Assembly: GCA_017985015.1 (NCBI GenBank)
Contig: JAGNYI010000029.1
Coordinates: 1-37,672 of the forward strand
Reading direction: 5' to 3'
Source of the DNA: Giesbergeria sp.
Lineage (GTDB): Bacteria; Pseudomonadota; Gammaproteobacteria; Burkholderiales; Burkholderiaceae_C
Length of the DNA stretch: 37,672 nucleotides
Notes under the pieces: generated by a model
Told to the model about the DNA's origin: nothing
What the model saw: the letters and a program-made list of their open reading frames with translations, nothing else
The model's database searches: none
Part shown: one piece after another, positions 6,640 to 36,326 of the stretch
How the letters are laid out: every line of letters starts with the position of its first letter
Position numbering within the stretch: position 1 is the first letter of the stretch
Position numbers and translations under genes: made by a program

Positions 6640-6677
6640 GGGGAGATTATCCGGGCGGCGGATATACTACATTTTTC

Positions 6678-6733
6678 ATAGCGGTTAACGCTTACCCCAT
6701 AAGCGCTAGAGGCCAAAAAAGCTTCAAATTTTT
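6678..6733 (+). repeat. Dispersed palindromic repeat, copy 1
   Basis: Begins ATAGCGGTTAACGCTTA and continues CCCCATAAGCGCTAGAGGCC, then an A/T-rich tail (AAAAAAGCTTCAAATTTT). CGCTTA and TAAGCG form an internal stem around CCCCA. It lies between the divergently oriented promoter side of rlmB and the 3' end of the ABC ATPase gene. Its tail encodes the last two residues (Lys-Ile) and stop of that gene. Confidence 0.8.
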
Positions 6734-15784: not shown

Positions 15785-16735
15785 GTGGCCGGCTACGTGG
15801 GCCGATTCGCCCCATCGCCCACCGGGCCGTTGCACGCCGGTTCGCTGGTGGCGGCGCTCGCCAGCTGGCTCGATGCACGGGCGGCCGCTGGCCGCTGGCT
15901 GGTGCGCATCGAAGACGTGGACACCCCCCGCTGCAGCCCGCAAGCGGGCGAAACCCTCCTGTGGCAGCTTGCCGCTCTGGGCCTGCGGGCCGACGAGACG
16001 CCGCTGTGGCAGTCGCGGCGCAGCGCCGCCTACCAGCAAGCGCTCGATGCGCTGGTGCGCTCTGGCCTGGCCTACCCCTGCGCTTGTTCGCGCGCCGACA
16101 TTGCTGCGGCGCACGCGTCGGCAGGCCGCATCCCGACGCGCCACCACCCCCTGCCCTATCCCGGAACATGCCGCACCGGCCTGCGGGGCCGCCCACCGCG
16201 CGCCTGGCGCTTTGCCTGTGAAAAATATTGGTCAAAATGGCCTCTAGCGCAATACAGACAAGCGTTGGACGCTAGTTTTTTCATAGTGAATGATTTGCTG
16301 ATCTGGACCGATCGCCGCCTGGGCGTGCAAGCGCAGAACGTGCCCGCCGAGGTGGGCGACTTCGTCCTCCAGCGCGCCGACGGCCTCTGGGCCTACCAGC
16401 TCGCCGTGGTGGTGGACGATGCCGAGCAGGGCATCACCCACGTGGTGCGCGGCGAAGACCTCGCCGACAACACGCCGCGCCAACTGCTGCTGCAGGCGGC
16501 GCTCGGCCTGCCTGCCCCGCGCTACTTGCACACACCGCTGGTGCGTGGCGCCGACGGCGAAAAACTCTCCAAGCAGCATGGCGCGCCCCCGCTGGAGACA
16601 TCCGATCCGTTGAAAGCACTGCAACGTGCGGCCGAAATGCTGGGTCTTTCCCCTGTTCCAGCGCAAACCCAGGTCACGGATGCGCTGGCACACTGGGTCA
16701 TGGCTTGGCGTGCTCTCTACAATCCCGCCCCGTGA
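15785..16735 (+). CDS. gluQ: Glutamyl-Q tRNA(Asp) synthetase with in-frame repeat insertion
   Basis: A 316-residue truncated GluRS paralogue that attaches glutamate to the queuosine base of tRNA(Asp). Motifs are [16 protein letters not shown] (6-21, HIGH-type), a zinc site C99, C101, Y125, C129, [20 protein letters not shown], and EKLSKQHG (KMSKS-type, about 259-266). The start is GTG at 15785. Between AWRF (about 140-143) and WTDRRLG (174-180) the protein carries an aromatic- and Lys-rich segment, residues about 146-168 ([18 protein letters not shown] then SFFIV), which I do not expect in the family. Its DNA (16222-16287) is a copy of the dispersed palindromic repeat in reverse orientation. 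The frame stays open, so the enzyme may remain functional with a surface loop. The trmB GTG overlaps the gluQ stop. Confidence 0.92.
16222..16287 (-). repeat. Dispersed palindromic repeat, copy 2, inside gluQ
   Basis: On the minus strand it reads CTAGCGTCCAACGCTT, then GTCTGTATTGCGCTAGAGG, then CCATTTTGACCAATATTT. This matches the family core GCGCTAGAGGCC, the left arm (ATAGC..., here CTAGC) and the A/T-rich tail. It is translated in the gluQ frame as about 20 extra residues. The arms are more diverged than in the intergenic copies. Confidence 0.75.
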
Positions 16736-18528: not shown

Positions 18529-18539
18529 GCTGCTTTTCT

Positions 18540-18586
18540 TAGGGTTTTAGACCCCCAGCGCTTATCCATACTGCCTCAAGCGCTAT
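18540..18586 (-). repeat. Dispersed palindromic repeat, copy 3 (diverged)
   Basis: On the minus strand it reads ATAGCGCTTGAGGCAGTATG then GATAAGCGCTGGGGGTCT. The left arm ATAGC and the core GATAAGCGCTGG match the family; the middle is diverged. It lies about 12 bases past the GGDEF stop, between that gene and the terminator before the alaS 3' end. Confidence 0.6.
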
Positions 18587-18620
18587 ATTTTAAATAGCAT
18601 TCCCTCATACTGCCCGTAGC

Positions 18621-32348: not shown

Positions 32349-32386
32349 CCCCGTGATTCCCACGCGGTGCCGATGCAATACTATTG

Positions 32387-32442
32387 ATAGCTGCTAACGC
32401 TTTACCAGTAAGCGCTAGAGGCCTGAAACACGTAACTTTTTG
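32387..32442 (+). repeat. Dispersed palindromic repeat, copy 4
   Basis: Reads ATAGCTGCTAACGCTT, then TACCAGTAAGCGCTAGAGG, then CCTGAAACACGTAACTTTTT. It is close to consensus and lies in the 162-base gap between the GntR regulator and the aldehyde dehydrogenase. The rest of that gap holds a C/T-rich stretch and no clear promoter. Confidence 0.8.
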
Positions 32443-34021: not shown

Positions 34022-34107
34022 GCAGCTATCAAACAAGAAACTACTGTTTTGATAGCTGCTTTCGCTTGATGGATAAGCGCTGGAGGCCTATTTGGCTTGA
34101 AATTTCA
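34022..34107 (+). repeat. Dispersed palindromic repeat, copy 5, with long hairpin arm
   Basis: GCAGCTATCAAA (34022-34033) is the exact reverse complement of TTTGATAGCTGC (34048-34059), giving a 12-bp stem with a 14-base loop. The family core then follows: TTCGCTTGATGGATAAGCG, CTGGAGGCC and TATTTGGCTTGAAATTT. This is the most complete copy. It lies after the aldehyde dehydrogenase stop and may act as a transcript end-structure. Confidence 0.85.
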
Positions 34108-34173: not shown

Positions 34174-34247
34174 GCGGGTGTAGTTCAATGGTAGAACGGC
34201 AGCTTCCCAAGCTTCATACGAGGGTTCGATTCCCTTCACCCGCTCCA
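34174..34247 (+). tRNA. tRNA-Gly (anticodon CCC)
   Basis: A 74-base tRNA with encoded CCA. The acceptor stem GCGGGTG pairs with CACCCGC. The D arm is GTTC-AATGGTA-GAAC, the T arm GAGGG-TTCGATT-CCCTT, and the anticodon loop TTCCCAA places CCC at positions 34-36, reading the Gly codon GGG. The anticodon stem as written (GCAGC against GCTTC) has one C-T mismatch at pair 28-42. Confidence 0.95.
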
Positions 34248-34268
34248 GTTCTCAAGCGTCTGGCCAGC

Positions 34269-35435
34269 ATGGCCCTCTGCGCGCTGCTGGGTTGGAACCA
34301 CGCTGCCTCGGCGCAGCCCACGGACAGCAAGCCCGTGGTGGCGGTGCTCCAGCCAAACGCTGTCCCTTTCTCCGACGCCTTGCTGCGCAGCCTCAAGCTC
34401 CCACCGGGCTTTGAGATTTCCGTCTTCGCCCAGGGCCTGGGCAATGTGCGCTGGATGCAGGTAGCGGCCAATGGCGATGTGTACGCCAGCCTGCGCAGCC
34501 AGGGCGAGGTGCTGCTGCTGCGCGACACCGATGGCGATGGCGTGGCCGATGTGCAGAAAACCGTGGCCCGCATCGCGCGCGTGCACGGGCTGCTGCTGCA
34601 CGCCGGCAAGCTCTACATGGTGTCAGACCGGGCGCTGGACGTGGCCGACGTGCAGAGCGAAGGCACCCTGTCCGCGCCCCGTCGCTTGTTGAACGACCTG
34701 CCCGAGGGCGGCAACCACCCGCGCCGCACGCTGGGCATGGGGCCAGACGGCTGGCTGTATCTGAGTGTGGGCTCCACCTGCAACAACTGCCTTGAGGCCA
34801 ACCCCGAAAACGCCACCCTGCTGCGCCTGCGGCCCGACGGTACGCAGCGCGAGATCGTTGCCCGTGGCCTGCGCAACACCATGGGCTTTGCCTGGCAGCC
34901 GGTGACGGGGCAGCTCTACGGCTTTGACCACGGTTCGGACCTGCGCGGCGACGACCAGCCGCCCGAAGAGCTCAACGCCATCGTGCAAGGCAAGCACTAC
35001 GGCTGGCCCTGGTGCCTGGGCGCGCGGGTGCCCGACCCGGTGCAGGCGCAAAACCCGCCGGGCACCAGCAAGCAGGCGTTTTGCCCGAGCACGCAGGCGC
35101 CAGCCGCCACCTATACGGCCCATTCGGCGCCGATCGGTTTTGTCTTCTACACCGGCACGCAGTTTCCCAAGGCCTACCAGGGCGATGGCTTTGTCGCCAT
35201 GCGCGGTTCCTGGAACCGCTCCAAGCCCAGCGGCTACCGCGTGCTGCGCGTGCGCTTCGGCGCCGATGGCAAGCCCACAGGCATGGAAGACTTCGTCACC
35301 GGCTGGCTGCTGGACACCCAGCCGCCCACGCAGTTCGGCCGCATCGCGGGCCTCGCCGTGGCGCCGGACGGCTCGCTACTCATCGCCGAAGACCAGAACG
35401 GCGTGATTTACCGCGTTCGCTACACCGGCCGCTAA
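34269..35435 (+). CDS. Exported sorbosone-dehydrogenase-like PQQ-type beta-propeller protein
   Basis: A protein of about 388 residues in the glucose/sorbosone dehydrogenase (GSDH/YliI) fold. Typical segments are LPPGFEISVFAQGLGNVRWMQVA, DTDGDGVAD, HGLLLHAGKLYMVSD, GGNHPRRTLGMGPDGWLYLSVGS, GLRNTMGFAWQPVTGQLYGF and DHGSDLRGDDQPPEELN. Members may use PQQ to oxidise sugars in the periplasm, though many are uncharacterised. A Cys pair (CNNC) may be disulfide-bonded. The start is uncertain: ATG at 34269 leaves a short hydrophobic leader (MALCALLGWNHAASAQ) without basic residues, while the open frame runs back into the tRNA, where the residues VLKRLAS would supply positive charge but no usable start codon is seen outside the tRNA. 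It may be transcribed with the tRNA. Confidence 0.82.
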   Translation: MALCALLGWNHAASAQPTDSKPVVAVLQPNAVPFSDALLRSLKLPPGFEISVFAQGLGNVRWMQVAANGDVYASLRSQGEVLLLRDTDGDGVADVQKTVARIARVHGLLLHAGKLYMVSDRALDVADVQSEGTLSAPRRLLNDLPEGGNHPRRTLGMGPDGWLYLSVGSTCNNCLEANPENATLLRLRPDGTQREIVARGLRNTMGFAWQPVTGQLYGFDHGSDLRGDDQPPEELNAIVQGKHYGWPWCLGARVPDPVQAQNPPGTSKQAFCPSTQAPAATYTAHSAPIGFVFYTGTQFPKAYQGDGFVAMRGSWNRSKPSGYRVLRVRFGADGKPTGMEDFVTGWLLDTQPPTQFGRIAGLAVAPDGSLLIAEDQNGVIYRVRYTGR

Positions 35436-36252: not shown

Positions 36253-36270
36253 TCCATCACTACCAATTCC

Positions 36271-36326
36271 ATAGCTGCTTGCGCATACCAGATAAGCGCT
36301 AGAGCCTCTTTTTACTTAAATTTATT
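36271..36326 (+). repeat. Dispersed palindromic repeat, copy 6
   Basis: Reads ATAGCTGCTTGCGCATACC, AGATAAGCGCTAGAGCCTC, then TTTTTACTTAAATTTATT. It fills most of the gap between the SDR stop and bktB, ending a base or so before the TAGGAG ribosome site, so it is probably part of the bktB leader transcript. Confidence 0.85.

Follow-up and report, generated by a model that had tools for sequence, protein, structure and literature searches.

Palindromic repeats that are read in frame within proteins are familiar above all from Rickettsia. The Rickettsia palindromic elements (RPEs) are described in two reports as a dispersed family of about 150 bp with copies in frame in unrelated genes, nearly half of them lying within genes in R. 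conorii (PMC10969869, PMC3733652). Two further families have been described: the Beta-proteobacterial repeat element (BRE), which is about 90 bp long with 69% G+C, often tandem and in some copies located in coding sequences (PMC3110155), and the RU small mobile sequences of enterobacteria, of 103-168 bp, with intragenic copies that have open reading frames (PMC2759123). The motif section of another paper reports two motif pairs as potential novel motifs, counted in and between genes: GCTTAT(N)5AAGCG, with 114 copies in Acidovorax ebreus, 5 of them in genes, and ATAGCT(N)22CAAAAG, with 125 copies in Polaromonas naphthalenivorans, 18 of them in genes (PMC5217627).

The locus compared here with these systems is a gluQ gene in a window (the whole stretch of 37,672 nt that was analysed) from a Giesbergeria genome of 3.37 Mb in 110 contigs. 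The product of its frame, 15785-16735, scores 434.7 bits against the NCBIfam GluQRS equivalog, above the cut-off of 380. The repeat-related features of the window are as follows.

15785..16735, + strand: gluQ, tRNA glutamyl-Q(34) synthetase GluQRS, 316 aa, with a frame that the insert leaves open (ORF listing; NCBIfam NF004313 and TIGR03838 above cut-off)
16211..16221, + strand: what is left of the original short loop on its left side, following the conserved W-R (loop boundaries and element limits)
16222..16287, + strand: repeat copy in gluQ, 66 nt translated in frame into 22 residues, about residues 147-168 (profile match, Markov control, outgroup length difference)
16288..16303, + strand: what is left of the original short loop on its right side, preceding the conserved W-x-D-R-R-L-G (loop boundaries and element limits)
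18538..18601, + strand: decayed repeat match, missed by the initial annotation (16.0 bits; control maximum 10.3)
6664..6732, - strand: intergenic repeat copy (52.5 bits)
32373..32441, - strand: intergenic repeat copy (55.0 bits)
34038..34106, - strand: intergenic repeat copy (66.6 bits)
36256..36324, - strand: intergenic repeat copy (49.7 bits)

A profile made from 31 copies of the same genome, the gluQ copy excluded, gives 25.4 bits at 16222-16287. In the control for this profile, eight order-3 Markov sequences of 4.1 Mb in total, no match of 12 bits or more occurs and the best reaches 10.3 bits, which rules out a chance match for the gluQ segment; the same search finds nothing of 8 bits or more in 97 kb from relatives almost without the repeat. 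The G+C content of the insert is 0.39, versus 0.72 for gluQ outside the loop. The gluQ segment is thus confirmed as a decayed in-frame copy of a dispersed repeat of 66-74 nt. The initial annotation had proposed just such a repeat in frame inside gluQ, and the open frame together with a score far above the shuffled-type control, the comparison it had set beforehand, bears this out. The four intergenic copies it had named are also real and run in reverse orientation to gluQ.

The repeat is abundant in the genome of the window. Its core pattern, with up to three mismatches, occurs at 129 places (70 forward, 59 reverse), and the reversed control has none. The genome holds at least 150 copies, as a 74-position profile matched all 150 scored candidate places (E <=2.4e-10); these were drawn from the 1649 of a first look, so that the copy count is a lower bound. 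In the direction of gluQ the consensus reads roughly AAATTT-AAGT-AAATTGGCCTCTAGCGCTTATC----AAGCG-TAGCAGCTAT-AATTT-AATAGCA. It folds into a weak, imperfect hairpin of 10 pairs with no covariation. Hence the element, first described as palindromic, does have a consensus hairpin but an imperfect one in which no compensatory change is seen. As a single DNA strand the gluQ copy folds no better than shuffles (z -0.43), and the five copies of the window range from -0.42 to -2.02. A consensus search of 72,556 plasmid records found two with the repeat, both times beside genes and never in gluQ. One window copy lies about 70 nt upstream of a tRNA-Gly(CCC) gene (34174-34247). The ORF listed at 34188-35435 begins inside this tRNA gene, so that its true start is probably further downstream.

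The repeat may be moved by an enzyme acting in trans. It resembles REP/RAYT systems in being a short, dispersed, hairpin-like repeat in a genome with a Y1-transposase gene. It differs from them in that this gene, found in 24 of 25 genomes, is also present in repeat-free ones, and in that the Y1-transposase locus of the window's own genome (L472) contains no repeat; a RAYT as mover is consequently without support. Of the 30 loci taken around Y1-transposase hits, four contain the repeat (L469, L477, L486, L487). At the position of the REP tag (GTAG or CGTC at the hairpin foot) the consensus of 75 copies reads ATAG, a tetranucleotide that the collection pattern itself contained. As for MITEs, inspection of the consensus by eye revealed no clear terminal inverted repeats.

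The length of the insert was measured against outgroups. Twenty order-level genomes were given to the search, and in 16 the loop was measurable from the search coordinates: 12 of the 16 are exactly 22 residues (66 nt) shorter at the gluQ loop, and the other four are shorter by 19, 21, 23 and 27 residues. Since 12 outgroups lack exactly 22 residues, the gluQ segment is a clean in-frame insertion of 22 codons. The earlier reading, that repeat DNA entered in frame and is tolerated as a loop, is supported; its figure of about 20 added residues is corrected to 22. The net gain equals the 66-nt match, which leaves no clear room for a target-site duplication. A core-pattern search found the repeat core in none of 24 order-level genomes.

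The loop of the window protein, bounded by the conserved W-R and W-x-D-R-R-L-G, comprises 31 residues. The nearest named relative of the genome in this comparison is Simplicispira hankyongi (86% GluQ identity). Over 101 parsed loci, five of which are duplicate assemblies or halves, loops of 8-17 aa occur in 37, of 22-23 aa in two and of at least 29 aa in 62; exactly 31 aa are found in 38 of the 101. The repeat is matched with at least 12 bits in 41 of the 62 long loops, at the same place and in the same orientation, while none of the 37 short loops reaches 8 bits. Among the 110 loci searched, 42 loops, that of the window gene (L009) included, reach 12 bits; two of the loci (L040, L047) duplicate others, and L116 also matches at this level with an unparsed loop. 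Scores of orthologues rise to 40.9 bits at the same site. Genera with a repeat-matching loop include Comamonas, Acidovorax, Polaromonas, Rhodoferax and Giesbergeria, and in 40 of the 64 loops of at least 22 aa (three of the 40 from duplicate assemblies) the core starts 50 nt after W-R. The insertion had initially been presented as an event caught in this particular gluQ. It is instead common to many genera, at the same nucleotide.

Not all long loops match the profile. Twenty-one of the 62 remain below 12 bits, and 11 of these have no listed match at all. Those low-scoring long loops that have 31 aa and can be aligned are read as decayed; some others (e.g. L051, L053, L071, L107) may have a different origin. 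The orthologue comparison suggested at the outset does not refute the insertion, as the segment is missing from genomes almost without the repeat, with the reservation that the two nearest sisters (L010, L011) have a homologous segment of equal length which scores 6.9 and 7.9 bits, within the range of the control. In a shortened loop of 23 aa (L074) the element core is still visible.

The presence of the insert was compared with the genome-wide copy number in 36 genus and family genomes, of which three, all genus genomes, gave no readable gluQ. Among the remaining 33, the window's own included, the 24 with the insert have 8-181 core copies and the nine without it 0-2. Twenty of the 26 genus genomes carry the insert, judged by the loop, and have 15-181 core copies; in G001, G015 and G022 the loop is 10 aa long and the core is present 0, 0 and 2 times. 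Four of the ten family genomes carry the insert, namely G027, G028, G029 and G035 with 8, 11, 55 and 153 copies, the match in G028 being weak (14.7 bits) with a frame change inside. The other six (G026, G030, G031, G032, G033, G034) show no match at gluQ and have 0, 0, 0, 0, 0 and 1 core copies, the state of G026 being read from coordinates and the unmatched loop of G030 being longer. At the G028 locus (L379, about 1900-2040) this copy of gluQ looks broken or mis-sequenced, because the reading frame shifts inside the insert. The three genus genomes with the 10-aa loop (L030, L031, L028; named relative L052, Giesbergeria anulus) form a clade inside the genus that is almost without the repeat.

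We consider it quite probable that the repeat inserted into gluQ, most likely once, and was then inherited, repeatedly lost and carried as a tolerated loop. In detail, an AT-rich, high-copy repeat of 66-74 nt put 66 nt (22 codons) into the GluQ loop after the cysteine-containing region. The DNA match, the exact length and the frame show that 22 residues were gained with the frame kept, 66 being a multiple of three and the gluQ copy being free of stops in this frame. Identical position and phase point to a single insertion, presumably early in Comamonadaceae and neighbouring Burkholderiales, and several lineages would later have lost the insert wholly or partly, which takes many changes on the tree. 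One old gain with later losses, some perhaps partial (L074, L069), is on balance probable.

Repeated gain, in which the gluQ loop would be a preferred landing site entered several times independently at the same nucleotide and in the same orientation and frame wherever the repeat is active, seems rather unlikely to us, but several observations speak for it. The state of the insert agrees with the genome-wide copy number in 33 of 33 genomes, which, because the genomes are related, are not 33 independent events. In a tree of 96 GluQ proteins, made with the loop left out, the long and short loop states need 13 changes (about 29 in shuffles), and repeat-matching versus short loops need 11, of which at least four are forced by well-supported branches. 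A single clade of all long loops fails the AU test (p 0.00018), so that one gain with no loss is excluded and several gains are possible. Furthermore, 24 of the 37 short loops have 8-11 aa, about the ancestral length, in lineages without the insert, and simple decay would rarely restore the ancestral loop length. The insert in the gluQ of G027 fits the repeat variant of its own lineage clearly best (36.7 vs at most 27.9), which is what later gain or gene conversion would give. Against repeated gain, identical position and phase across distant genera are most simply explained by common descent, and the own lineage is best in just three of five cases, clearly so only in G027, and not in the other two. 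The control of this variant test is weak for three lineages (own wins 16/37, 13/37 and 17/47).

Two rows of the alignment hold a second, different insert in the same gluQ loop, a further point in favour of repeated gain. These loops (L085 and L105, both from metagenome bins) measure 79 and 85 aa and contain a G+C-rich in-frame insert of about 135-150 nt. The second insert of L085 is self-complementary over 117 nt (75%) and shares with that of L105 a 38-nt stretch of 84% identity. A wider reading would make the gluQ loop a true landing site, with independent entries of an active repeat in the one tolerated orientation and frame, would have conserved proteins (UvrA-like, HrpA, MutL, HsdR and others) receive extra loops from the repeat in three frames, and would add a second, unrelated palindromic repeat nested in frame in two lineages; taken together we find this rather doubtful.

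DNA matches show copies of the repeat in frame within further genes as well, in the frame of gluQ and in two others. In the genome of the window 19 matches in 18 proteins, out of 156 distinct ones examined in a set enriched for open frames, lie in an open frame with an equal best coding frame on both sides. When the set is picked by DNA score alone, four of 91 strong copies sit within a gene and in its frame, and a further seven have an equal frame on both sides with a stop inside; these gene counts are rough because the coding-frame classifications do not list the gluQ copy itself. NCBIfam names for in-frame matches are HrpA, TlyA, UvrA (a long UvrA-like protein), EarP, HAD-IIB hydrolase, HsdR, MutL, serine/threonine kinase, RecC, RlmD, KDO transferase, ornithine carbamoyltransferase, E2 acyltransferase, MetG and PurK, several pieces, including UvrA, TlyA and RecC, being below the curated cut-offs. 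Tex and a Res-type helicase were named from motifs. Candidate frames were also listed by peptide motif, and some of them look like spurious antisense frames. The strong copies use three frames: that of gluQ, another of equal orientation (EarP, HAD) and a reverse one (UvrA-like, TlyA, kinase, RecC).

The length comparisons for these proteins differ from case to case. The UvrA-like protein has a clear length gain over relatives without the repeat, and within the genus its insert is absent from G001, G004 and G022. For EarP, the genus comparison finds a shorter segment in all three genomes of the clade almost without the repeat (G001, G015, G022), and the UvrA-like loop is empty in the two of them that were covered, G001 and G022. 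Tex, the kinase and MutL gain 5, 6 and about 8 residues net over relatives almost without the repeat, whereas the DNA match spans 22-24 codons. The HrpA match sits in a linker which is variable in all rows, and the RecC comparison comprised the own-genome row alone. Among the TlyA rows (L291-L316), five from the genus (L291-L295) have a repeat-like segment of 24 aa and the others a long acidic one of about 70-100 aa; G018 has one TlyA of each kind, the second (L314) with the long acidic segment. For the second EarP match (L264, 25.3 bits) and RlmD (L277, 29.4 bits), relatives almost without the repeat hold a homologous segment of similar length. Both are rejected as insertions on this ground, and neither plain insertion nor chance explains them well, so that a match of about this size in a gene is not by itself proof of insertion. 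Because these two are not insertions by length and Tex, the kinase and MutL gain only 5-8 residues, the true insertions in this genome are fewer than 19.

How the gluQ insert is treated once in place can be judged from substitution rates. When the four nearest genomes are compared pairwise (six pairs), the loop region, which includes nine original residues, has a dN/dS of 0.27-0.78 and the flanks have one of 0.10-0.14. The ratio is below 1 for the insert in all 18 pairs listed, which are not independent, and the pair L042-L050 has misaligned flanks that inflate the pooled flank value. The insert changes several times faster than the flanks. As loop dN/dS is below 1 yet above that of the flanks, the insert behaves as weakly constrained coding sequence. 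An AlphaFold2 model of the protein (mean pLDDT 88.6), whose best solved match is E. coli GluQRS 4a91, predicts a short helix at 145-151, pLDDT below 50 at 156-159 and a strand at 165-168; the insert is modelled as a partly disordered, low-confidence excursion from GluQ, for which the initial annotation had suggested a possible new surface near the tRNA- or zinc-binding side. Rates and predicted structure together suggest a tolerated and partly disordered loop, kept under weak constraint ever since the insertion. That it is kept as an added tRNA- or partner-binding surface would be in line with the dN/dS below 1, the loop of 31 aa in so many loci and the predicted helix and short strand at its ends, but its faster change, its absence from many lineages and the low pLDDT in part of its middle make such a function quite unlikely. 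Least probable by far is a native protein segment merely resembling the repeat, for which the homologous segments at the second EarP match and RlmD could be cited, and which the outgroup lengths rule out for gluQ, where orthologues with up to 40.9 bits at the same site and the foreign base composition of the insert also argue against it.

Among the known systems, BRE shares with the gluQ repeat that it is dispersed in Betaproteobacteria and partly located inside coding sequences, but with about 90 bp and 69% G+C it does not agree with an insert of 66 nt and 39% G+C. The RU sequences, likened here by description, have intragenic copies with open frames and differ in being enterobacterial and 103-168 bp long. 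Closer is the agreement with the two motif pairs (PMC5217627), reported from the same bacterial family: GCTTAT(N)5AAGCG spells part of the repeat core and ATAGCT(N)22CAAAAG fits the start of the repeat. By our reading, matched by letters and spacing, the repeat would thus already be in print as these two pairs, and the motif section of that paper is silent on reading frames, on inserted residues and on gluQ. In the literature searched we found no account of proteins in which this repeat forms an in-frame segment.

With the RPEs the gluQ repeat has in common that it is dispersed and has in-frame copies in unrelated protein genes, insertion being clear for gluQ and the UvrA-like protein and less certain for the others. 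The analogy with Rickettsia drawn in the initial annotation holds as a way of working, a dispersed repeat read in frame. The differences are the length (about 150 bp according to PMC10969869 versus 66 nt in gluQ and 74 nt in the profile), the intragenic share (nearly half in R. conorii, as far as described there, versus four of 91 strong copies in frame here) and the high-G+C Betaproteobacteria in which the gluQ repeat lives. As to the hairpin, the consensus has its 10 pairs without covariation, and the window copies fold with the z scores given above. The insertion in gluQ is so old that many genera share it, and near relatives almost without the repeat serve as natural controls. GluQ, a small and well-studied enzyme, therefore allows a direct test of whether the protein loops that stem from mobile repeats are lasting and useful or only harmless. 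By description and length, the repeat appears to work like the RPEs but to be another, shorter one: a different repeat would do in high-G+C Betaproteobacteria what in-frame palindromic repeats do in Rickettsia.
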